Source of the DNA: a virus
Reading direction: 5' to 3' (one strand)
IMG/VR virus record: IMGVR_UViG_3300050821_004771
Span: 1-23,575 of that record
Length of the DNA: 23,575 nucleotides
Numbering within the stretch: the stretch's first letter is position 1; every line of letters begins with the position of its first letter. A program made the position numbers and the translations under genes. Below are positions 1 to 23,109 of the stretch, piece after piece. Below the pieces are notes generated by a model. The model was given only the letters and a program-made list of their open reading frames with translations, did not search any database and was not told the DNA's origin.

Positions 1-1
1 A

Positions 2-97
2 GATGCTGCCCGCCGTAACATTGAGAAAGCCCTTGAAAAGCGGTGGCCAGGACGAAAGTATACCGGACGGATCGCCAAGAGAAGGAAGATCAAGTGA
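2..97 (+). CDS. C-terminal end of an unidentified gene (partial)
   Basis: An open frame enters from the left edge and ends in TGA, giving 31 residues rich in Lys and Arg (ending KRRKIK). Its stop overlaps the GTG start of the next gene in a GTGA junction, the coupling used throughout this operon, which is the main reason to believe it is real. The basic tail suggests contact with nucleic acid or membrane, but the fragment is too short for a function. Confidence 0.55.
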   Translation, partial: DAARRNIEKALEKRWPGRKYTGRIAKRRKIK

Positions 98-717
98 CCG
101 ACCTCTTCTTCAGAGTGGCCCCGAGAGACGGAGTGAGAGAAGCCATTGCTATTGCCTGCTTCAGGAGATGGAAAAGCGACCCTCTGGTTAATCTTAGGTT
201 GATCGGTGCCAGCGAGATAGCGCTACACAAGGTGTTCCAGCCCATAGAGATCAGTTTGCCAGAAGAGAACTTCCACTTCGCCAGCAGACAGTGGGCGGAC
301 GATCACGCGGAGACAGAACCCTACTTTTTAGTTGACGACGACGAGATGCCACTGGGAGCGGATTGGGTCGAACATGCGGTCAATCTGTGGAGACTGTACA
401 ACTCCGACCGGAAGTACGTGATGATGGTCGGCAGGCCCATGCTCACAGTGGAAGATGTGGCGAGACACCACGAGAGGCTACGCAATTCCAGGCAAGAAGT
501 AGAGGAAATGTCGTATTGGTGGGGATGCCCCTATATGAGTTACCAGGGAGCAGTGCCTTACGGGACGATGAACGGGAGAGCGGATCAGCAGGACCCTACT
601 GTGGAAGCGTGGGCTAAAGCGAATGGCAAGAAACAAGCCCTTTGTATGAGACTGTATTACAACCATTTTGGACTGAGTTTCTCACAAGTTCAGCCGTCAC
701 TATACGGAAGGTTTTAA
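94..717 (+). CDS. Small GT-A-like glycosyltransferase
   Basis: A 207-residue protein. Residues 77-90 hold a hydrophobic strand followed by an acidic triplet (PYFLVDDDEMP), which resembles the DXD metal and nucleotide-sugar binding site of GT-A glycosyltransferases. The upstream 'REAIAIACFRRW' stretch and the order of elements fit a short GT2-like domain, although the protein is shorter than most. I chose GTG at 94 over an upstream GTG at 43 because 94 has a ribosome site (AAGGAAG, 5 bases away) and forms a GTGA overlap with the previous gene. Its stop overlaps the ATG of the large fusion glycosyltransferase, so the two are probably co-translated and act on the same glycan. Acceptor and donor sugar are unknown. 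The family call rests on motif and context. Confidence 0.65.
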   Translation: MTDLFFRVAPRDGVREAIAIACFRRWKSDPLVNLRLIGASEIALHKVFQPIEISLPEENFHFASRQWADDHAETEPYFLVDDDEMPLGADWVEHAVNLWRLYNSDRKYVMMVGRPMLTVEDVARHHERLRNSRQEVEEMSYWWGCPYMSYQGAVPYGTMNGRADQQDPTVEAWAKANGKKQALCMRLYYNHFGLSFSQVQPSLYGRF

Positions 718-2732
718 TGCGGCCTCTGTATACCATCGCCATTCCGGTGTTCAATCATCTCCATTTGACTAAGAAATGCCTGGAGAGTCTGAAGATCAGC
801 AAAGGGATTGGTAGAGCAGAGATCATTGTGGTGAACGACGCCAGTACGGACGAGAACGCCACCGCTGATTATCTGAACACTGCCGGGGTTGGCGTAATTA
901 CCCTGGAACAGAACTCCGGCCTGGGGAGGTGTCTCGATAAAGCGCTGGAATTTGCCCATGCACCGTACTTCGTCACGTTGAACAACGATGTGGAGATCCT
1001 GTGCCCCGACTGGCTGGAGATGATGCGGGAACAATTTGTGAACGATCCCAAGATGGCTTTGGTGGGAATACAGGCGGCGGATGTGTGCGGGAGCATTGAT
1101 GCGAACGGGCGTGGTTACCAAGGCGCTTCGTTTGAGTATGTGGAAGGCGCGGTGATGATGGGACGAACATCGCTGCTCAGACGAATTGAAGGAGGGCTGT
1201 TCGATCCTGAATACAGATTCGCCTACTTTGAGGACAACGACCTGAGCCTGAGAGTAAGGAAGATGGGGTACCACATAGGGAAAGTGCCTGCGGCTGTCCG
1301 ACACAAGCGCTGCGGGACGATGGGAACGGTGATCCAGCAAGGAGTGGATGTGGATGGGTTCCACCGGATCAACGAGGAGACTTATAAGAAGCGGTGGGGA
1401 AGGTACATCAAGTGCCGTAACTTCACAGAGAGCTGGGGGATTCAAAGGAGCGGTGCAAACGGTGACGTGCTGTTCCTGACTCCTATCCTACGGGAGATCA
1501 AGAAACAAAACGCAGAAGCAATCGTCTCCGTATACACCAATTGCAGAGAAGTGCTGGCAGATAATCCCGACTGCTACGCTCCCCTGACTCCCATCGGACC
1601 ACCGGACGCTTACGATCACTGGATTAACCTCGATGGAGCTTACGAATCCCGAACGGGAATGCACATTATAGAAGCCTACCAAGAAGTGAGCGGAGTATCG
1701 ACGGACGACTGGAGATTGCACTTGTATCCCGGCGAGGAAGCTAGAAAATGGGTCAAGGAAACCGTTTGGAAGGAACCATACGCGGTCATTCACCCACACA
1801 TTGGACAACCGTGGATGGGAAGGAATCCCAATACCAAATTCATGTGGAGAGTGGCCACTTGGCTTAAGGAAAGAGGATGGAAGGTAGTGCTGTTAGGAAC
1901 CGCGTACACTCCAGGGATACCCTGCGATCTCAATTTGCAGGGAAAGACCACGTTACGGCAAGCGGCTTCTTTGGTGGAGGGAGCGGGACTATTTTTCGGA
2001 GTGGACAGCGCCCTGATGAACTTTGCACAGGCTAGTTTGATCCCCACTGTAGGGATATTCGGGGCCATGAACTATAAGAATATACTCCTGCCGTTCCCGT
2101 TCGTGAAAGCGTTGACAGCCAAACCAATGGAATGCGGGTGTCTGGGATGCCACACTGTTTATGCCGAGAGACCCAAGGGGAGCCCTGGCAGATGCATCCG
2201 AGAACGGGGCGACGTGTGCATGGACAGACTGAGAGAAGAAGACGCGGTCAAAGCGATTGAACAGGTGCTCGGTGCCAAGGAGTTGTACAAAGAGACGAGC
2301 AAGATCAGAGCGAGAGTCCTGCCGTTCTGTCAGGGGAAAGGGATTGATATTGGCTGCGGGAGAGACCCACTGACCGACGACTGTGTGGCTTACGACGATG
2401 ACCCATGGCCGGAAGTCACTATGCGAGGGGATGCCAGAAGGATTCCGATTAGCGATGGGACGTTCGACTGGGTCTATTCCAGTCATTGCATCGAGGACTT
2501 GGACGACACCGAAGCAGTGCTCAAAGAATGGGTGAGGATACTGAAGAAGGGTGGCAAGCTAATCGTAGTAACACCATGTCCAGACCTTTTTACTGGGTTC
2601 AACAAAGAACATGTTTGGCCGGGGTTCACACCAGATGAGTTGTCACAATTTGTGCGGAACGCTGGATGTATGCCAGAAATCAGTGACGTGTGGGCCGACT
2701 ATTCTACGGTTGTAGTGGCGAGGAAACTGTGA
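717..2732 (+). CDS. Three-domain fusion: GT2 glycosyltransferase, GT9-like glycosyltransferase, SAM methyltransferase
   Basis: A 671-residue multidomain glycan enzyme. Residues 1-245 are a GT2 domain: start 'YTIAIPVFN', nucleotide-binding 'VVNDAST' (38-44), a DXD-like 'LNNDVE' (88-93) and the acidic catalytic stretch 'FEDNDLSLRVRKMGY' (171-185). Residues 247-515 resemble GT9 (heptosyltransferase) proteins: 'GDVLFLTPILRE' (249-260), the central 'AVIHPHIG' strand, and 'GVDSALMNFAQAS..PTVGIFG' (428-449). Residues 535-671 are a class I methyltransferase with 'GIDIGCGRD' (542-550, SAM-binding loop) and 'GTFDWVYSSHCIEDL' (581-595). The ATG at 717 forms TAATG with the upstream stop and has a GGAAGG site. 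The likely job is successive sugar addition and methyl capping of a surface glycan; substrates are unknown. No frameshift is needed: all three domains lie in one frame. Confidence 0.88.
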   Translation: MRPLYTIAIPVFNHLHLTKKCLESLKISKGIGRAEIIVVNDASTDENATADYLNTAGVGVITLEQNSGLGRCLDKALEFAHAPYFVTLNNDVEILCPDWLEMMREQFVNDPKMALVGIQAADVCGSIDANGRGYQGASFEYVEGAVMMGRTSLLRRIEGGLFDPEYRFAYFEDNDLSLRVRKMGYHIGKVPAAVRHKRCGTMGTVIQQGVDVDGFHRINEETYKKRWGRYIKCRNFTESWGIQRSGANGDVLFLTPILREIKKQNAEAIVSVYTNCREVLADNPDCYAPLTPIGPPDAYDHWINLDGAYESRTGMHIIEAYQEVSGVSTDDWRLHLYPGEEARKWVKETVWKEPYAVIHPHIGQPWMGRNPNTKFMWRVATWLKERGWKVVLLGTAYTPGIPCDLNLQGKTTLRQAASLVEGAGLFFGVDSALMNFAQASLIPTVGIFGAMNYKNILLPFPFVKALTAKPMECGCLGCHTVYAERPKGSPGRCIRERGDVCMDRLREEDAVKAIEQVLGAKELYKETSKIRARVLPFCQGKGIDIGCGRDPLTDDCVAYDDDPWPEVTMRGDARRIPISDGTFDWVYSSHCIEDLDDTEAVLKEWVRILKKGGKLIVVTPCPDLFTGFNKEHVWPGFTPDELSQFVRNAGCMPEISDVWADYSTVVVARKL

Positions 2733-2914
2733 AACAGCAACCGGATATGACTTGGGCTCTACCGATTTTCGTTCTATTTGCTATAGGAATATGTCTAATC
2801 GTTGCTCAGGGCATAATCACTATCTACTGTATTACCAAGAGAGAACACGGAAAAAGAGCATCTAAATTGCTGGAATTTTGGGCTGGATATGACAAGGAGC
2901 AAAGAGAATCGTGA
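2729..2914 (+). CDS. Small single-pass membrane protein
   Basis: A 61-residue protein starting at a GTG that overlaps the fusion gene stop (GTGA), with AGGAAA just upstream. Residues 8-32 form one strong hydrophobic helix (ALPIFVLFAIGICLIVAQG onward), followed by a basic and acidic cytoplasmic-type tail ending in KEQRES. It ends in a GTGA overlap with the methyltransferase gene. Its place between glycan enzymes suggests it could tether them or the glycan machinery to the membrane, but this is inference. No family recognised. Confidence 0.7.
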   Translation: MKQQPDMTWALPIFVLFAIGICLIVAQGIITIYCITKREHGKRASKLLEFWAGYDKEQRES

Positions 2915-7983: not shown

Positions 7984-8283
7984 ATGAGCACCGATAGAAA
8001 GCCCACCCAGAACGTGACCCTAACAGAATTGCAACTAGCGGACATTGCCACGATCACCGGCCAGATAGACCGTCTGGGCAAGAGTCTGGTCGAAGCCATG
8101 ACCCAACGGGATGAGTTGGTATCTGCGCTGGAGCGGATTCGCAACAAGATCGACATAGCCAATATCCGGCGTGACGGCAAGTGGGCTATACAGACGCTCG
8201 ACGCGATAGACGAGATCGCACAACGGGCGCTTGCGGGACAAGCAGGGAGGGAAGTTACGAGGGCCGAAGGCCCGAGTAACTGA
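7984..8283 (+). CDS. Small helical hypothetical protein
   Basis: A 99-residue protein preceded by AAAGGAG. It is mostly alpha helical with a likely coiled coil from residue 14 to 55 (QLADIATITGQIDRLGKSL and on). The last 15 residues (after GQAGRE) are encoded by a hairpin, so they may reflect RNA structure instead of protein function. No family recognised. Confidence 0.65.
   Translation: MSTDRKPTQNVTLTELQLADIATITGQIDRLGKSLVEAMTQRDELVSALERIRNKIDIANIRRDGKWAIQTLDAIDEIAQRALAGQAGREVTRAEGPSN
8253..8281 (+). repeat. Hairpin with tandem GA mismatch at the end of the helical gene
   Basis: AGTTAC/GTAACT and GGGCC/GGCCC stems flank opposed GA steps, which can form stable sheared pairs, with a GAA loop. 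It covers the last codons and stop of the gene. Its outer AGTTAC arm and GAA loop echo the hairpin at 5513-5542. Confidence 0.5.
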
Positions 8284-8304
8284 GTGGAGGGAATAGCATT
8301 GCCA

Positions 8305-8326
8305 GTGCTAAGCCTTAGCTTAGCAC
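8305..8326 (+). repeat. Perfect 9-bp hairpin (GTGCTAAGC / GCTTAGCAC)
   Basis: A perfect 9-pair stem with a CTTA loop lies 20 bases before ATG 8347. It argues that the in-frame upstream GTG at 8284 is not the start, since the intervening codons would be the hairpin itself. Confidence 0.55.
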
Positions 8327-8346
8327 CAAAAGGATGGAATTGTCAA

Positions 8347-8511
8347 ATGGAACTGACAGACGCGGACGTGCTGTACATTCGGGATGCCTCGCTGGACGAC
8401 TTGAGAGAGGAGCTGGAATACGCCAATCCAACCGACACAGAGTACCGCAAGGCACTCGCTGCGGAGATACTCAGACGCACCGCCAAGGCACCAGAAGGAG
8501 AAGCGCAATGA
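8347..8511 (+). CDS. Small acidic hypothetical protein
   Basis: A 54-residue protein from ATG 8347 (MELTDADVLYIRDASLDDLR). An AAGGATGGAA stretch lies 8 to 17 bases upstream. It is helical and acidic with no motif. A longer form from GTG 8284 is possible but would translate the hairpin. It ends in an ATGA overlap with the next gene, which supports both. Confidence 0.6.
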   Translation: MELTDADVLYIRDASLDDLREELEYANPTDTEYRKALAAEILRRTAKAPEGEAQ

Positions 8512-8669
8512 CTCACGAAGAGATCGGCGAATTGCAGCACAAAGCAGGCCGGAGCCGTAGCCCGATGGTTAGGTGTTGGGAAGACCAAGACCCGGCCACT
8601 CGGGTAGCCATCTGGATAGCGGCAGTGGGAGCGTTGGTTGTCGTAATGGGGTTGTGCTGGATGTTCTAA
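8508..8669 (+). CDS. Small C-terminal-anchored membrane protein
   Basis: A 53-residue protein in ATGA overlap with the gene before it. Residues 1-33 are polar and charged; residues 34-52 form one hydrophobic helix (VAIWIAAVGALVVVMGLCWM) at the very end, so it is probably tail-anchored with a cytoplasmic N-terminus. No family recognised. It is the last gene of the accessory block. Confidence 0.62.
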   Translation: MTHEEIGELQHKAGRSRSPMVRCWEDQDPATRVAIWIAAVGALVVVMGLCWMF

Positions 8670-8768
8670 ACGCCTCTCAGATACCCTCTAGAACGCAATA
8701 GGAGACGATTTGCGCAACTTTGGTCCCGAAAGGGCAAAATACCTTGTACCTGACTTTTACACAGTTAG

Positions 8769-8784
8769 TACTACAATCGTAGTA
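8769..8784. promoter_or_regulatory. Palindromic operator-like site TACTAC-AATC-GTAGTA
   Basis: A perfect 6-base inverted repeat around AATC, inside an AT-rich 170-base gap. It overlaps a weak promoter-like pair (TTTACA at 8756, TAGTAT at 8780). It is a likely target for the HTH protein encoded just downstream, or for another repressor. Confidence 0.45.
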
Positions 8785-8802
8785 TAAGATCGTAAAAATT
8801 CA

Positions 8803-8833
8803 TGTTGACAGTCCGTGTTAACAGGACTAAAAC
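8803..8833 (+). promoter_or_regulatory. Promoter with overlapping operator before the HTH gene
   Basis: TTGACA (8805-8810), 17 bases, then TAAAAC (8828-8833). TGTTGACA and TGTTAACA form a direct repeat 13 bases apart, and AGTCC/GGACT (8810-8814, 8824-8828) flank the second copy. A repressor bound here would block the promoter. The predicted start of transcription (about 8840) is only a few bases before ATG 8843, so the mRNA may be leaderless. Confidence 0.55.
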
Positions 8834-8842
8834 GCATGGGTC

Positions 8843-9741: not shown

Positions 9742-10300
9742 AATGCCGGAATGGTTGCGGCGGGACTTGCAACGGTGGGAACACTGGGGACCAGTGCATG
9801 AATTCCGTGCGGATATGGCTCGTTCCAATGCGGTTTCGGCTGGAGTAACTATACTCAACTACATGGAGGCTATGGTTGGCTATAGTGGGAATTGGCTGAC
9901 TTTTTGCGCGATGACTGACGTACTGAACGTGCTTCCAAAAGACCTGAAGATTGCGATTGAACTGCGTTTCGGTGAATGCTTCATCAGAGTCTTGGAGAAA
10001 GGACTGAAAGTGAAAGCCCAAAGCGAGATCCAAATACCCTGTGATGTCTGTGGCCAGTTGGTACGTCTGTGGTCGGACGGAACCATAGTGGATCACCGGA
10101 ACAAGCGGACCCACCACCGATGTAAGGGAAGCGGGACCGAACGACATGCTGCGAAGGTAGAGCCAACACCACCCGTTACAGGTGATCCTACTTGCGCCTC
10201 TTGTGGGATGACCATGCGGAAAGAAGGTCAAGTGTGGGTTTGCGATAATTGCGGAGATACCAGTGTGCCGGATTCACTGCGAGGTACGGTTGCCAGTTAG
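9719..10300 (+). CDS. Zinc-binding protein, two Cys clusters
   Basis: A protein of 193 residues from ATG 9719; ATG 9743, just after the previous stop, would give 185. The helical N-terminal half has no known motif. The second half holds 'IPCDVCGQLVRLWSDGTI' with a following 'THHRC' (a Cys/His zinc site) and a C-terminal zinc ribbon 'CASCGMTMRKEGQVWVCDNC'. It may be a replication or recombination accessory protein that binds DNA, given that it is translated just before the helicase, whose GTG start lies inside its 3' end. Confidence 0.65.
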   Translation: MPKTKKNEMPEWLRRDLQRWEHWGPVHEFRADMARSNAVSAGVTILNYMEAMVGYSGNWLTFCAMTDVLNVLPKDLKIAIELRFGECFIRVLEKGLKVKAQSEIQIPCDVCGQLVRLWSDGTIVDHRNKRTHHRCKGSGTERHAAKVEPTPPVTGDPTCASCGMTMRKEGQVWVCDNCGDTSVPDSLRGTVAS

Positions 10301-12791
10301 TTCTATCGGGATACTGCCGGAACCCTCCGCTCTTGGCCTGCCTGAGCGTTTCTCCGACTGGAGGCCAGGGCAGGAAGATGCCGCTTTGCGTGCGGTCGAA
10401 AGTACCAAGCGATTCGTCGTGCTGGCACTTCCTACGGGCTCTGGCAAGAGTCTGGCGTACCTGGCAGCGGCGCAACTGTCCGGGGAGCGGACTGCGTTCC
10501 TAACGAGTACGAAGGGACTACAAAACCAACTGTGTCTGGCACCGGAAACCAAAGTTCTTACGTCTACATTTCGCTGGATTCCCATAGGTGATCTGAAGTG
10601 CGGTGACGTTGTTATGGGTTTTGATGAATACCTTGCACCGACCAGACGTTACTGGAAACCTTCAAGGGTTTTGTCTGTGCGTTGGTCGAAGCGTCCGGCC
10701 TATGTTTTATTTCTGGAAGATGGAACAACGGTAACAGCGACAGCGGATCACCAATGGCTTTGTCGAAGTTGGGGCGGTCAGTCTCCGTGGATTACAACCA
10801 GCAATCTCAGAGTGGAAGGAAAATATGCTTCGCACCTCTCCAAAATAGTAGATGTTTGGGAGACCGATCAAAGTTATCAAGCAGGATACCTTGCTGCCGC
10901 ATTCGATGGCGAAGGTCATTTGACGCAGCGTCGCTATAGAAAAGGTGACGGACGTGATAATGGTGTTTCAGTAGGATTGTTCTTCTCTCAAGTGAAAAAC
11001 GAGATGCTTGAGCGTGTTAAGGAATATCTCTACCTGAAGAAATTCCGATTCAGTAAGCATCTTCAAACAAGAACAAATCCGAAACATCGCAATTGCGAAA
11101 TCATTGAAGTTGGTCATCGTAGAGACATCATTCGTTTCCTTGGTCAAATTAGACCTGTGCGTCTTCTTGGTAAGGTCAAGTTGGACTTGTTCGGCATGAT
11201 CGGACCAGTCCGTAGAGTTAAGGTAATAGGCCGAGAATATATTGGCACGTGCGACATGGTTGACATCTCTACTACGAGCAAGACTTTTGTTGCCGAAGGT
11301 TTCGCTACACACAACTGTAGTGACTTCCAATCGAGCGGTCTATTAGACATCCGGGGACAGAACAACTACCCCTGCCTTTATCACAATGGGACTGAGCCGC
11401 GCAGAGCGGGTGAACATGCAAGATTAGGCGGCAACCAGTCAGCAGAACACGGCCATACGCGAGGACATGCCTCACCAGCGTTTCCCTCGGCTGAGATGCC
11501 GACAGTCCCTACCCTTTCTTGTGACGAAGGACCGTGCCATGGGGGAGTCAGATGCGAGTTGAAGGAGAGCGGTTGCGTCTACTTCGACCGAGTTAGGTTG
11601 GCTCGCCAAGTCACTCTGGTTTCTACCAACTACTCCTATTGGATGCACCAAATGGAAAACGGCGGAGGTCTCGGTCCGTTCTCTATGTTGGTGTTGGATG
11701 AGGCTCACGATGCCCTGGATCAGCTTTCAAATTATCTGGCAGTCGAGCTGTTCCCCTCCGATCTGGATATTCTTGGTGAGGATAGATTCCCCGAACACAA
11801 TGCATTCGAGCCTTGGAAAGTTTGTTCACGAGTTTGGCTGGACCGTGCCCGGTCGCAACGAGAGTCCCTCGAAGCGGCTGTAAAGGCCGGTTTGGCTGAC
11901 GGTGATAGTCGGCGGGCCGTGCATCAAGCGAAGCATCTCAAGAAACTTGAGCGGAAACTGGCGCAGTTGTCTTCCGCTCAGGGAGACTGGGTCTTCCAGG
12001 TGACGCGGCGAGGACCCAGTGGGAGCCTAGTAGCCCGCTTTGACCCGGTGTGGCCTGCCGACTATGCCGAAAGGAGACTGTTCTGTGGGATTAAGAGGGT
12101 CGTTCTTACCTCCGCCACGATTCGTCCGAAGACTCTTGAACTTCTGGGTATTGGTCATGGCGATGTGGACTTTCAGGAGTACCCTTCCAGCTTTCCAGTG
12201 GGTAGGCGTCCTGTCTATTTTGTCCCTAGTGTACGCATGGACAAGCGAGCGACGCCCGGACACATGCGAGCCTGGATATCGAAGATCGACGCTATCATTA
12301 GGCCCAGACTCAAAGGGAAGGGAATTATCCACGCTGTTTCCTATCAAAGAGCGCAGTGGATCGCCAGAAACTCCGAGTTCGCCGGACACATGTTTGTCCA
12401 TAACACAGGAACAGCACGAGAGACGATTGCGAAGTTTAAGGAGGCGGTCCCACCGGCAATTCTAGTTAGTCCCAGTGTCTCAACGGGATTTGACTTCCCT
12501 GATGATGAGTGTCGCTGGCAGATCCTATGCAAAGTCCCGTTCCCTGACACTCGCGACTTAGTCACCAAAGCTCGCAGTGACCGGGATAGAGACTATCCTA
12601 TGTACCAAGCGATGCAAGAGATCGTTCAGATGGCGGGGAGAAGTACCAGGAGCGAGGACGACTGGTCGGAGGTACTGATAGTAGACGACCACTTTGAATG
12701 GTTCTGGCCTAAGTTCAAGAAGTTCGCTCCGAAGTGGTTTGCAGAAGCAGTCGAGTTGTGTAAGGTCATACCCAAACCCTTAGAGAAGTAA
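10263..12791 (+). CDS. XPD/DinG-like Fe-S DNA helicase interrupted by an intein
   Basis: An 842-codon frame for a superfamily 2 helicase plus intein; spliced length would be 581 residues. Walker A 'LPTGSGKS' is at 56-63, motif Ia-like 'TSTKGLQNQL' at 81-90, 'NNYPC' at 367-371, then Cys420, 425, 431 and 438 (an Fe-S cluster region as in XPD/DinG), DEAH box at 479-482, and motif VI 'QMAGRSTR' at 789-796. The enzyme would unwind DNA 5' to 3' in replication or recombination. GTG 10263 has GGAG 6 bases upstream; TTG 10290 is an alternative. Residues 376-416 between the YPC cysteine and the others are unusually Gly/His rich. Confidence 0.88.
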   Translation: MCRIHCEVRLPVSSIGILPEPSALGLPERFSDWRPGQEDAALRAVESTKRFVVLALPTGSGKSLAYLAAAQLSGERTAFLTSTKGLQNQLCLAPETKVLTSTFRWIPIGDLKCGDVVMGFDEYLAPTRRYWKPSRVLSVRWSKRPAYVLFLEDGTTVTATADHQWLCRSWGGQSPWITTSNLRVEGKYASHLSKIVDVWETDQSYQAGYLAAAFDGEGHLTQRRYRKGDGRDNGVSVGLFFSQVKNEMLERVKEYLYLKKFRFSKHLQTRTNPKHRNCEIIEVGHRRDIIRFLGQIRPVRLLGKVKLDLFGMIGPVRRVKVIGREYIGTCDMVDISTTSKTFVAEGFATHNCSDFQSSGLLDIRGQNNYPCLYHNGTEPRRAGEHARLGGNQSAEHGHTRGHASPAFPSAEMPTVPTLSCDEGPCHGGVRCELKESGCVYFDRVRLARQVTLVSTNYSYWMHQMENGGGLGPFSMLVLDEAHDALDQLSNYLAVELFPSDLDILGEDRFPEHNAFEPWKVCSRVWLDRARSQRESLEAAVKAGLADGDSRRAVHQAKHLKKLERKLAQLSSAQGDWVFQVTRRGPSGSLVARFDPVWPADYAERRLFCGIKRVVLTSATIRPKTLELLGIGHGDVDFQEYPSSFPVGRRPVYFVPSVRMDKRATPGHMRAWISKIDAIIRPRLKGKGIIHAVSYQRAQWIARNSEFAGHMFVHNTGTARETIAKFKEAVPPAILVSPSVSTGFDFPDDECRWQILCKVPFPDTRDLVTKARSDRDRDYPMYQAMQEIVQMAGRSTRSEDDWSEVLIVDDHFEWFWPKFKKFAPKWFAEAVELCKVIPKPLEK
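10533..11315 (+). mobile_element. 261-residue intein with LAGLIDADG homing endonuclease motif
   Basis: Host codons 91-351 form an in-frame intein. It begins with Cys1 (CLAPETKVLT), has a block B 'TATADHQW' (Thr70, His73) and ends 'VAEGFATHN' with penultimate His260 and Asn261, followed by Cys+1 of the helicase: all residues needed for standard class 1 splicing. One LAGLIDADG motif is clear (GYLAAAFDGEGH, 118-129), and 'RFLGQIRPVRLL' near 201-212 fits the end of that domain, so the endonuclease probably works as a homodimer. It sits right after a conserved helicase motif, a typical insertion point. Its codons look more AT-rich than the flanks, consistent with separate ancestry. Confidence 0.88.
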
Positions 12792-12819
12792 AATTCAAAA
12801 CAAAAAAGGAGCAACACCA

Positions 12820-13665
12820 ATGCCACTTGGCAAGCCTAGTGTAGTGAAAGGGAAGTCGGGCCAGGGATCAAAGGACCGCAAGCCGATCAGCGTTGCACCG
12901 TCAGACGCAGTCTCAGGCGGCGGGGCACCGGACAACGTGGACACCACCATTATGGAGATGACCGCGACCACGTGGGACTATAACGGCAGTCAGGAACCAA
13001 GCGCGTTCCTTCTGGTTAAACTGAAGGACGACGATGAGACCGAACACGAACAGTATTACTCCGCTGGCGATCTGAGTAAGATCGTTCCGTCTGACGACGG
13101 AGCGTGCTTCTACCCGGCAGAGGGGAGCAGTGTAACTGGACTGAATAACAACTGCAATGCCTACTTGTTTCTCGGCGCACTTGTGGATCAGGGTTTCCCG
13201 GAAGACAAGCTGCGGGATGAAGGGTTCCAGACTGCGGTGGGACTCCGGGGGCATATGAATGCGATTGCACCGAAGAAGAAGAGGGAGGGACTGGAGGGAG
13301 GGAACAAACCCATTGGGGTGTTCACCAAGATCCACTCACTGCCGTGGGAGGGAACAAAGGGTAAGGGAAAAGCCCAACCTTCCACCACATCTCGTGGGGC
13401 TTCGACTCCCGCACGTGGAGCTTCGGAATCCTTAAACGGTTCGGGGAGTGAGCTGAACGATGAAGCAATCGAAGCCGTGGTTGCTGCATTGGCCAAGGCA
13501 GAAGGGCCGATAGAAGTCAAACGGCTGGGGATGGCTGCGTTCCAAGCCGCTCCCAAAGCCGCTCATAGGAAGGAGCTGATTAAGTACGTCGTCCAGAACG
13601 ACTTCCTGGAACAAGACGGGTTGCCGTTCGCGGTGGACGGTGACATGGTGGTGATGACCGAATAG
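12820..13665 (+). CDS. Putative phage ssDNA-binding protein
   Basis: A 281-residue protein with AAAGGAG upstream. A disordered Gly/Ser/Lys-rich N-terminus (1-40) is followed by a beta-rich region (about 40-175: 'SAFLLVKLKDDDETEHEQYY', 'GLNNNCNAYLFLGALVDQGF'), which could be an OB fold. A low-complexity linker (about 185-205) leads to a C-terminal domain (about 210-281) resembling a winged helix. Its place between helicase and PD-(D/E)XK nuclease, with the RecA-like ATPase nearby, supports a ssDNA-binding function. No motif proves it; high expression would fit the strong ribosome site. Confidence 0.5.
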   Translation: MPLGKPSVVKGKSGQGSKDRKPISVAPSDAVSGGGAPDNVDTTIMEMTATTWDYNGSQEPSAFLLVKLKDDDETEHEQYYSAGDLSKIVPSDDGACFYPAEGSSVTGLNNNCNAYLFLGALVDQGFPEDKLRDEGFQTAVGLRGHMNAIAPKKKREGLEGGNKPIGVFTKIHSLPWEGTKGKGKAQPSTTSRGASTPARGASESLNGSGSELNDEAIEAVVAALAKAEGPIEVKRLGMAAFQAAPKAAHRKELIKYVVQNDFLEQDGLPFAVDGDMVVMTE

Positions 13666-15773: not shown

Positions 15774-15805
15774 GGCAACCGTTCTGTCAGGTGTACGAAC
15801 AGAGT

Positions 15806-16168
15806 ATGAGACCGAAACGAATAACCAAGCGCAAAACCAATGGGACTCACCTTCACGTGAACAGCGGCGGTGGTCACTACCCTCGTATCTCTGCCGGTCC
15901 TTGTCGTGGCAAGTACGTTCACCGCATAGTTGCAGAAGCCCTGTTGCGCCGCAGACTCAAGCCCAACGAGACGGTAGACCATAAGAATCAGAACACACTG
16001 GACCCGGACCCTACTAATCTGCAAGTGGTCAGTTGGGCTGACCATGCCAAGATCACTGCCAGAAGGAGAGACCGACGATTGGACTTAGCTGGGTTCGAGC
16101 GGGGAGTGGACTATAACGTAGTGCTGGACGGCGGGGAAGTGATGGAGATGGAACCCGGAAGTGAATGA
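15806..16168 (+). CDS. HNH endonuclease (HNH_3 type)
   Basis: A 120-residue protein from ATG 15806; an in-frame GTG 15791 would add five residues and neither has a clear ribosome site. It has the HNH_3 arrangement: 'KYVHRIVAEALL', 'ETVDHKNQNTLDPDPTNLQV' (His and Asn core) and 'SWADHAKITARR'. Such proteins nick or cut DNA and often spread as free-standing homing endonucleases. It sits between two recombination genes, so it may be a selfish insertion in the operon. Confidence 0.8.
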   Translation: MRPKRITKRKTNGTHLHVNSGGGHYPRISAGPCRGKYVHRIVAEALLRRRLKPNETVDHKNQNTLDPDPTNLQVVSWADHAKITARRRDRRLDLAGFERGVDYNVVLDGGEVMEMEPGSE

Positions 16169-16247: not shown

Positions 16248-16980
16248 GTTAGACAATCGTATCGGTAGTGGAGACCTTGGGCACTACTTCGATAAATGGC
16301 AAGTCCCATTCCAACTGTGCCGTCTGGATTACGGTGACTGCGCCATAAAGGGCAACGGTCCCAACGGCAGTACTATGGAGGTGGGAGTTGAGATCAAAAA
16401 GATCAGGGACGCCCTCAATTCTATTTGCGATGGAAGATTTGCTGGTCATCAGTTGCCCGGATTGATCGAGAATTACAACCGTATCTGGTTGGTAGTCGAG
16501 GGTCAATTCTCCTGTGACTACAGCAGTGGCTTGCTAATGTACCGAAGAGGCAAGAAAATGGAACCGCTATCAGTAGGTACTCGCCAGTTCATGTTTAGAG
16601 ACGTTGATGCTTGGTTAACCACTATGGAGGTAAAGGGTGGTGTACATGTCCGTCGCACCCTGTCCAGATTGGAGACCGCCAGATTTATAGCAGACCTACA
16701 CCACTGGTTCACTTCCAAAACTTATGAAGAGCACAGATCGCACCTGGCTTTCAATGAACCGGACTTCGACACAGAGATTCTGTTCAAACCAAACGGAGTC
16801 CAGTCCATGGCCAAAGAGTTACCTGGAGTGGGTTGGACTAAGAGTAAGGCTGTAGCCAAGCACTTCAAATGTCCAGGTGAGATGCTTGCTGCTGATGAGA
16901 TTGAATGGGCTAGTATAGAAGGAATTGGAAAGCTTACCGCTAAGAAGATAGTAGATTATATATGGCTGCCAAAGCGATAA
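16240..16980 (+). CDS. ERCC4/XPF-like structure-specific nuclease with helix-hairpin-helix
   Basis: A 246-residue protein. The N-terminal ERCC4 fold shows 'LDNRIGSGDL' (4-13), 'YGDCAIKG' (31-38), 'VGVEIKKIRDALNSI' (48-62; Glu51 and Lys53 correspond to the ERK-type motif) and 'DGRFAGHQLPGL' (64-75). The C-terminal part has two helix-hairpin-helix units ('LPGVGWTKSKAVAKHF' and 'IEGIGKLTAKKIVDYI') for DNA binding. XPF/Mus81-type nucleases cut branched or flap DNA. Here it probably resolves replication or recombination intermediates. It starts at a GTG overlapping the small membrane peptide and its end overlaps the next HNH gene. Confidence 0.85.
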   Translation: MIKLDNRIGSGDLGHYFDKWQVPFQLCRLDYGDCAIKGNGPNGSTMEVGVEIKKIRDALNSICDGRFAGHQLPGLIENYNRIWLVVEGQFSCDYSSGLLMYRRGKKMEPLSVGTRQFMFRDVDAWLTTMEVKGGVHVRRTLSRLETARFIADLHHWFTSKTYEEHRSHLAFNEPDFDTEILFKPNGVQSMAKELPGVGWTKSKAVAKHFKCPGEMLAADEIEWASIEGIGKLTAKKIVDYIWLPKR

Positions 16981-17405
16981 CGTGTAAAAACTGTAGTTCT
17001 ATCACATCTAACAACGTCTTCTGCTCTCGTGGATGTTACTCGTCTTGGAGGTCTGTTACACCGGAACAAACGAGAAAGAGAAAAAGAGAGTATTGGAACC
17101 GCTGGAGTAGAACCACCGGGAGAGAATCGGTAAATGAAACGGCAAGGAATAGGGCAAGAGAGATACGAAGTTATTTGATTGCCGTAAAGGAAACTACTCC
17201 GTGTGCAGACTGTGGACTCAGTTTTCCTCATTACGTGATGCAATTCGATCATGTAGGTATGAAGAAAGATACTGTATCCAGACTAGTTACTAGAGGCTGG
17301 GGAGCTGTTCAAAGAGAATTGGAGAAATGTGAGGCTGTTTGTGCCAACTGTCATTGTATACGAACCTGGGAACGGAGAATTAACCGTAAGGCTGTTAAGT
17401 CGTGA
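16962..17405 (+). CDS. HNH endonuclease with N-terminal zinc knuckle
   Basis: A 147-residue protein. Cys8, Cys11, Cys21 and Cys25 form an N-terminal zinc site. The HNH core has 'PCADCGLSFPHYVMQFDHVG' (Cys81, Cys84, Asp96-His97) and 'EKCEAVCANCHCIRTWERR' (Cys127, Cys130, His131). It likely cleaves DNA as a free-standing homing endonuclease. The ATG overlaps the ERCC4 3' end by 19 bases, and the gene lies directly after that nuclease, so it may be a selfish element. Confidence 0.82.
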   Translation: MAAKAITCKNCSSITSNNVFCSRGCYSSWRSVTPEQTRKRKREYWNRWSRTTGRESVNETARNRAREIRSYLIAVKETTPCADCGLSFPHYVMQFDHVGMKKDTVSRLVTRGWGAVQRELEKCEAVCANCHCIRTWERRINRKAVKS

Positions 17406-22027: not shown

Positions 22028-22807
22028 CTACGACACTACACCCTGTAAATCAGATTGCAAGGTCGTAAGGTCCACTCCAGTGGGATCTAGATTACCAGAG
22101 GTAAGCCAGTCCCTGGATAGCAGGGCATGACTCTCATCGGTGTACTTCTCAAAGAACTCCCAAGTCATAAACTGTCTCATGCCCCAAGTGATGCACCACA
22201 ACCCAGTAGGATTGTAGTCAGGGCACCACACTGCATGACCACCCGCTATCCCACCGTCGTCCGGCACCACTGTCCAATCCTGTCCCGCTGCGTTCTGATC
22301 CATGGCAGATTGAGGGACGTTGAACCCTATGTAACTCCCGCCAAATAGGAATATAGACTGCTTGACGTGCAGAACGCTGGCCGGATCTGGGTCGGCATAG
22401 GCGAGAATCTTGTCTCCCGAGATCCCAGATTGTCTCCAATCATTCAGCACATCCAGCTCCACTCCACCCTGGTCAGTAGACGGGTCTGCGGGGTTGTAGC
22501 TGCACCACTGTTCGTAAGCCAGTTCAATAGCCGAGTCGGGCAGAGTGACTCTGGCCAGATTGACATTCTTTCCCAAGTTGATCTTCCATGTCTGGATGGC
22601 GTGACCCACTGCGGCTATGGTGCAGTCACCCAAATTGTCGTTGAGCATCATGCCCCACGATCTGTAACCCTTCGACCAGTAGACTGCCTGTGGGGGAGTG
22701 GCTGGAGAGACGTACTTCTTCATCTTGAGCGTGCGGTCGTCCAGACGTGGGGGGAGCTTACCTAGCTTGCGATTGCGTTGGTAGAGACGTTCGCGTTCAA
22801 ATGACAT
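22028..22807 (-). CDS. Papain-like cysteine peptidase
   Basis: A 259-residue protein from ATG 22807, which has GAGGAG 7 bases upstream; a GTG further upstream (22849) lies inside the previous gene. The pattern 'NDNLGDCTIAAVGHAIQTW' (likely nucleophile Cys), 'GGIAGGHAVWCPDYN' (likely catalytic His) and 'LWCITWGMRQFMTWEFFEKY' matches papain-fold cysteine peptidases found in phages and Acidobacteriota. It could process a virion protein or act on the host envelope at entry or lysis. The short N-terminal basic stretch is not a signal peptide. Coupled (TAATG) to the previous gene. Confidence 0.72.
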   Translation of the reverse strand: MSFERERLYQRNRKLGKLPPRLDDRTLKMKKYVSPATPPQAVYWSKGYRSWGMMLNDNLGDCTIAAVGHAIQTWKINLGKNVNLARVTLPDSAIELAYEQWCSYNPADPSTDQGGVELDVLNDWRQSGISGDKILAYADPDPASVLHVKQSIFLFGGSYIGFNVPQSAMDQNAAGQDWTVVPDDGGIAGGHAVWCPDYNPTGLWCITWGMRQFMTWEFFEKYTDESHALLSRDWLTSGNLDPTGVDLTTLQSDLQGVVS

Positions 22808-23109
22808 TAGGGTCTCCTCAGCATTGGATCGGACTGGGACTCCAACCACTCCACGTATTTAGCTCGTTGCTCATCGTGCAGTTCCGCGTGACGGCAGTGA
22901 CCGGGGAAGAAGAAGCCCAGCACACCGGAGAGCACCTTGCCCCATAGCTTCCCGGCGTAAGCAGCTCGTCCTGCCCGAGCACTGATAGTCTCCCCTTCAA
23001 CGCCGCCAAGGACTACGTTGACGAAGCAGTCGAACCCTATGGCAACGTCCATCAAGTATGAACGCATTACGCTATGCACTTCTGGTACCCAAACACCGAC
23101 AGCATCCAC
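22807..23109 (-). CDS. Conserved phage protein ('ETISARAG' type)
   Basis: A protein of up to 100 residues with 'FDCFVNVVLGGVEGETISAR' leading to 'AGRAAYAGKLWGKVLSGVLG' and 'FFFPGHCRHAEL'. I recognise this pattern from small phage proteins lying near lysis genes; function is unknown. GTG 23109 begins 12 bases after the previous stop but has no clear ribosome site; ATG 23067 and 23052 are alternatives. The stop overlaps the ATG of the cysteine peptidase. Confidence 0.62.
   Translation of the reverse strand: MDAVGVWVPEVHSVMRSYLMDVAIGFDCFVNVVLGGVEGETISARAGRAAYAGKLWGKVLSGVLGFFFPGHCRHAELHDEQRAKYVEWLESQSDPMLRRP

Follow-up and report, generated by a model that had tools for sequence, protein, structure and literature searches.

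Chloroviruses are a well-established case of virus-encoded capsid glycans. A064R of chlorovirus PBCV-1 (PMC9614988) is a protein of 638 aa that combines two rhamnosyltransferase domains with a methyltransferase (MTase) for the synthesis of the capsid N-glycans; the MTase 2-O-methylates the terminal sugar, and A061L adds a second methyl afterwards. A similar set of domains is found in WsaE of Geobacillus stearothermophilus, a soluble protein with two glycosyltransferase (GT) domains and an MTase, the latter capping the S-layer glycan with a 2-O-methyl (PMC2943079). Among phages, mycobacteriophages have more recently been shown to use GTs of their own to glycosylate both the capsid and the tail tube (Freeman 2023, cited in PMC12363180). 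We found no described GT9-based capsid module in the open-licence papers searched.

Here we describe a gene from an uncultured phage that joins a GT2, a GT9 and a class I MTase domain in one chain (Table 1). It lies in the window, which is the whole stretch of 23,575 nucleotides that was analysed (IMG/VR record IMGVR_UViG_3300050821_004771). The fusion and A064R, as the latter is described in the passages cited above, share the same layout, a virus-encoded GT-GT-MTase chain with predicted solubility, and they also resemble each other in the role that we propose, since in both cases the product would be part of a capsid glycan and an extra MTase is involved. Unlike the fusion, A064R belongs to a eukaryotic algal virus, and its first domain (D1) is described as having a GT34-like GT-A fold, not a GT2 one. 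The second (D2), which was set against the fusion by description, resembles few known proteins and is not called a GT9 in those passages. No A064R domain appeared among the PDB sequence matches of the fusion, and activity and glycan are proven for A064R whereas those of the fusion are predicted. The fusion would most likely be a phage functional analogue of A064R.

In contrast to the fusion, WsaE is cellular, carries its MTase at the N-terminus, has two rhamnosyltransferase domains and serves a repeating-unit polymer. Che8 gp110 and Corndog gp38 of mycobacteriophages (PMC12363180) are likewise phage-encoded GTs, and they decorate the capsid; they come from another host group and, compared by their description in the relevant part of that source, are not presented as fused to a GT9 or an MTase. 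Our preferred reading, to which we assign a probability of about 0.55, is that the window gene encodes a trifunctional soluble enzyme making a methyl-capped glycan directed to the virion.

Table 1. Fusion gene, its domains and the adjoining reading frames in the window
Feature	Position	Residues	Strand	Characteristics
Upstream ORF, 224 aa	43..717		+	No family match; 73-79% identical, same place, in L002/L003
GT2-GT9-methyltransferase fusion, 671 aa	717..2732		+	Uninterrupted single frame
GT2 domain	717..1421	1-235	+	PF00535; NND (DxD-type) and FEDNDL motifs
GT9 domain	1422..2270	236-518	+	PF01075; GANGDV; DSALMN; C-terminal Cys cluster
Class I SAM-dependent methyltransferase domain	2277..2729	521-671	+	PF08241; KETSKIR...GIDIGCGRDP
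55-aa ORF	2747..2914		+	Separates fusion and C-methyltransferase; one strong hydrophobic segment
NDP-sugar C-methyltransferase-type protein, 387 aa	2911..4074		+	PF08421 3e-17, methyltransferase, PF08484 7e-26

Three glycan-enzyme domains in a single frame

The sequence-only reading of the window had proposed that three enzyme classes are fused in one chain. Profile searches bore this out: three Pfam families occur in order in one 671-aa frame, and each scores above its curated cut-off. These are Glycos_transf_2 (PF00535; E 1e-15, res 6-124, 58.5 bits vs a cut-off of 23.3), Glyco_transf_9 (PF01075; E 4.4e-9, res 352-454, 36.5 bits vs 22) and Methyltransf_11 (PF08241; E 1.5e-11, res 568-617, 45.2 bits vs 21.2). 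The same families were detected in the most divergent copy, that of L004 (GT9 5e-17, GT2 1e-15, MTase 2e-11). The C-terminal domain has, in addition to the Methyltransf_11 match, the glycine-rich motif I of class I MTases (GIDIGCG), and the NND motif of the GT2 domain is shared by all four fusions and the other aligned GT2s of viruses.

The borders that we found (GT2 1-235, GT9 about 239-520, MTase about 524-671) are near those drawn from the letters. Note that Pfam matches just the C-terminal half of the GT9 domain, and that its GD motif sits in the first half. When the domain was aligned by hhalign to 21 canonical GT9 proteins, the alignment ran end to end over 264 columns with a probability of 98.6%, and it is this near-complete coverage of the segment that sets the extent of the GT9 domain.

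The ATG of the fusion overlaps the stop codon of the upstream ORF (TAATG). When each domain was tested separately by the Nei-Gojobori method on the three close copies, dN/dS was 0.07-0.15 per domain, which argues that the frame is neither chance nor chimeric. Structure prediction of the fusion from a 4-row alignment gave a pLDDT of 37. The protein has no membrane part (hydropathy does not exceed 1.6 in any segment of 19 residues) and is soluble.

The GT2 domain had been described beforehand as being of the polymerising type, and this was not sustained, as there is no membrane segment and the models matched were generic GT2 ones. A weak match to chondroitin synthase (1e-6) does not demonstrate processivity. 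A processive integral-membrane GT2 synthase does not fit a protein with no membrane segment; soluble processive enzymes are compatible with it.

The GT9 domain departs from the heptosyltransferases

As occurs with WaaC, WaaF and WaaQ, the fusion has a GT-B domain of the GT9 family with the conserved GD (D13) motif. Unlike them, it is without H266, is joined to a GT2 and an MTase, and is found in a phage context. Heptosyltransferases share the signature D(T/S)(G/A)xxH (PMC3559599; also PMC5713226), and D13 and H266 are the sole residues conserved in all those compared (PMC3559599). In the alignments to 3tov and 1psw, the D13 equivalent is invariant in the fusions (GANGDV or GAFGDV). The signature reads DSALMN or DSAPMN in 4/4 fusions, with Asn replacing the His, a residue that is present in 21/21 readable canonical GT9 loci. 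The C-terminal part of the domain also carries a Cys cluster (C473/C475/C478/C493/C501).

These results bear on the main rival to a virion glycan, in which the enzyme would alter an envelope glycan of the host during infection, such as the LPS core or the O-antigen, and thereby block re-adsorption of the phage or of its rivals. GT9 enzymes are classically LPS heptosyltransferases (PMC5713226), and the best NCBIfam match of the GT9 part is heptosyltransferase III (7e-13, res 343-453), a match that falls below its cut-off. Against this stand the Asn at the H266 position of every copy and the missing membrane segment. The earlier suggestion that the GT9 domain points to LPS core is therefore not supported: since the signature His is Asn in all four copies, a role in heptose transfer or LPS-core synthesis is unlikely, and ADP-heptose is probably not the donor judging by these residues.

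Distribution of the fusion

The full GT2-GT9-MTase order was found in three other virus contigs, L002 and L003 (~84% identity) and L004 (53%), the range being 53-85%, and the first 41 residues of the fusion were recovered at the end of contig L005 in the viral scan. The fusion had been expected to be uncommon, and it is: few full copies were found among 2.9 million viral contigs at limited search sensitivity. No full-length relative was present in the 50,697 phage records or the 72,556 plasmids searched, and no cellular full-length homologue was found in the genome collection. A profile search of 398 Pseudomonadota genomes likewise gave no full fusion, the best matches covering the GT2 part only. 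This cellular profile sampling covered Pseudomonadota with few candidates scored per genome, which makes the rarity a statement at limited sensitivity. Among the sequences searched, the order GT2-GT9-MTase is seen only in this phage group.

Several matches were set aside. L015, from Mesorhizobium, is an ordinary methyltransferase, and the GT9 matches in nominal phages came down to bacterial heptosyltransferases in Salmonella records and one weak match in a Campylobacter phage.

The fusion of transferases in one chain is in itself nothing new, because the same Pseudomonadota genomes contain other multi-domain glycan enzymes (GT2+GT4, GT2+WbsX and MTase+GT2+GT4). Two of these, L048 and L049 (~1140 aa), likewise unite an MTase, a GT2 and a GT-B domain; they differ from the fusion in that the MTase comes first, the GT-B domain is a GT4 and not a GT9, the chain is much longer and the loci are cellular. 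The existence of such chains would suit the idea that the fusion is a moron, a gene captured from a cellular glycan cluster and carried by chance with no fixed role for the phage, and so would the different position of the cassette in the two phage lineages described below. We think this improbable: the fusion is conserved over 53% identity, the close copies show a dN/dS of ~0.1 for each domain, the C-methyltransferase partner is always present, and the search for a cellular full-length homologue in the genome collection came back empty.

Position of the cassette in two phage lineages

The first lineage comprises the window, L003 and G001. G001 is 56,329 bp long and has an end repeat of 127 bp, which indicates that it is complete, and it carries terminase, portal, major head protein and family A DNA polymerase genes. 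In this lineage the cassette is the first on the replication-gene strand, divergent from the packaging genes, and does not adjoin the head gene. This weakens the virion reading. In the second lineage (L004/G003) the order is portal, one gene, major head protein, two small genes, cassette and later structural genes, and the cassette consists of the fusion, the C-methyltransferase and a TPR-GT9 gene. The major head protein of this lineage matches phrog_9953 (9e-13), and a later gene matches phrog_399 weakly (9e-5).

Because it comes first on the replication-gene strand in the window lineage, the cassette could well act on the host early, in favour of the host-surface explanation. Neither an integrase, nor a thymidylate synthase (PF00303), nor an NDP-sugar dehydratase was found in the window (G000), G001 or G003. 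A complete 56-kb relative that is free of integrase makes lysogenic conversion unlikely and, together with the solubility of the fusion, argues against serotype conversion. Relatives of the fusion's parts, moreover, lie in the late head module. Of the two targets that had been put forward from the sequence, coating of the virion is thus the better half, and a change of host receptors is less likely, given the integrase-free complete relative, the lack of a membrane part and the relatives in the head module. Overall, we regard modification of the host surface as unlikely.

The same early position could also fit DNA hypermodification, in which the glycan is placed on modified phage bases and blocks restriction; DNA is a known substrate of some phage GTs (Pyle et al. 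2024, cited in PMC12619734). Yet no PF00303 gene for base pre-modification was found in the window, G001 or G003, and a protein target agrees better with an NDP-sugar C-methyltransferase and with a cassette that in G003 lies in the head module. DNA as the target is accordingly very improbable.

MTase-GT9 proteins linked to the major head gene

When a GT9+MTase profile was run over the 398 Pseudomonadota genomes, a single match fell below 1e-14. This was a 533-aa prophage protein of the order MTase-GT9, encoded 1.3 kb downstream of the major head protein (phrog_1357), and its MTase shares 34% identity with the MTase of the fusion. Nine such prophage loci were found in eight genomes of the same class, all nine of them downstream of the major head protein. 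In L081 the distance from the head gene is larger, and the intervening sequence has head-gene fragments.

The scan of viral contigs gave no match with the single G023 MTase-GT9 protein as query and 14 loci with the nine-protein alignment. The major head protein lies 1.2-2.7 kb upstream in the 12 of 12 informative contigs, the other two having been left out because their upstream sequence is too short. Between the head protein and MTase-GT9 there is usually an ORF of 110-145 aa, the size of a decoration protein, and in the one locus tested the genes that follow are structural and head-closure genes. Together these make at least 21 other loci in which relatives adjoin the major head protein. Since most of these share the head family phrog_1357, their common position largely reflects one inherited event.

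The slot also holds further genes for sugar modification, namely a TylF-type O-methyltransferase in L119, other methyltransferases in L118 and L123, and a second GT9-like gene in L122-L124, L126 and L127. In L117 a stand-alone GT2 gene directly follows MTase-GT9, and so the three activities of the fusion exist there in unfused form.

The head-linked proteins (L061, L077-L084, L114-L127) share with the fusion the MTase subfamily, a GT9-type GT-B domain with the Asn signature, and the C-terminal Cys cluster. They differ in their MTase-GT9 order, in having no fused GT2, and in the first signature residue, which is Glu instead of Asp: the head-linked signature is PETG or TETG, then V/T, M/L and Asn. 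L127, a GT9 that carries no MTase, reads DTGLMH. Their loci also contain a head-protein family different from that of the fusion's. An HMM of the head-linked MTases gave 60-77 bits for the MTases of the fusions and ≤25 for the few other MTases tested, a score difference that, with this small control set, shows kinship and would place the fusion MTase in the same subfamily. That the two groups join MTase and GT9 in opposite orders points to functional coupling.

We also considered whether the GT9 of the fusion belongs to the head-linked GT9 clade, and this found no support, as head-linked GT9s are no nearer to it in HMM score than canonical ones are. The shared H-to-N change may consequently be convergent and is no proof of descent. 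Another candidate oddity, an in-frame TGA in the relatives of the G023 protein, proved to mark only that these end sooner, near residue 515-518, whereas the protein of G023 extends further at its end.

Some additional observations were made at these loci. The slot downstream of the major head protein (L061 7758-11624; L077-L084; L114-L127) holds GT9, GT2 and varied methyltransferases, and is a candidate for a general virion-glycosylation locus. In L061, a GDSL/SGNH-type hydrolase (12324-13520) with an N-terminal hydrophobic segment follows MTase-GT9 (PF13472 1.8e-7, just under the cut-off); it might be a glycan acyl-modifying enzyme. In L081, two C-terminal pieces of the major head protein (residues about 278-316) lie on the minus strand (8003-8839) between the head gene and MTase-GT9, and in L114 and L118 the last ~20 residues of the head gene have been split off after insertion.

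A possible route to a methyl-capped virion glycan

In the virion reading, the GT2 domain would add one sugar and the GT9-like GT-B domain the next, from a nucleotide-sugar donor that is probably not ADP-heptose. The C-terminal MTase would then close a short glycan by O-methylating its last sugar. The dedicated glycan with a fixed methyl group that had been proposed from the sequence is supported as probable. The gene that lies 3' of the fusion in 4/4 contigs carrying the full fusion has the domain set of an NDP-hexose C-methyltransferase (PF08421, methyltransferase and PF08484); judging by its family, its product probably makes a branched (C-methyl) donor from a host NDP-4-keto-sugar.

The acceptor would most likely be the phage's own virion, either a head or a decoration protein, because relatives of the parts of the fusion adjoin the capsid gene in more than 20 other phages. 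This reading builds on three domains that are conserved and under selection, on the C-methyltransferase that accompanies them, and on the head-module location of the cassette in L004 and of the MTase-GT9 relatives of the same MTase subfamily. From these we infer that each domain is active, in what order the domains act, which kinds of sugar they use, and that the acceptor is the virion.

A broader proposal, which we hold tentatively and at slightly less than even odds, is that tailed phages have a recurrent module for capsid glycosylation, built from GT9-derived GTs and methyltransferases, which lies between the head/decoration and the head-closure genes and makes methyl-capped virion oligosaccharides. 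The window gene would be its most consolidated form, and the module an independent parallel to the chlorovirus machinery. If this is true, gene neighbourhood would predict virion glycosylation in phages and mass spectrometry could test it, and GT9 would extend beyond LPS with a specific His to Asn change. The related MTase-GT9 proteins in prophage-bearing Pseudomonadota make a laboratory test possible that does not need the uncultured phage.

Other genes of the window

The ORF upstream of the fusion could be a fourth GT-A transferase: the DDD of its VDDDEMP motif aligns with the NND of the GT2 domain, but with an hhalign probability of 1%. Structure prediction from a 3-row alignment gave a pLDDT of 36. 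The 55-aa ORF that follows the fusion is missing from L002 and L003.

Further along the plus strand, a helicase ORF (10263-12791; Helicase_C_2, DEAD) is apparently interrupted by an intein, which begins CLAPETKV, ends FVAEGFATHNC and has a weak LAGLIDADG_3 match (E 0.0017). Two small ORFs on the same strand (15791-16168 and 16962-17405) look by eye like HNH-type homing endonucleases, and the replication region seems on their account rich in mobile elements. Finally, on the minus strand, 22028-22849 encodes a phrog_19005 protein (3e-33, unknown function) that has no Pfam match and lies near the late-strand endolysin.
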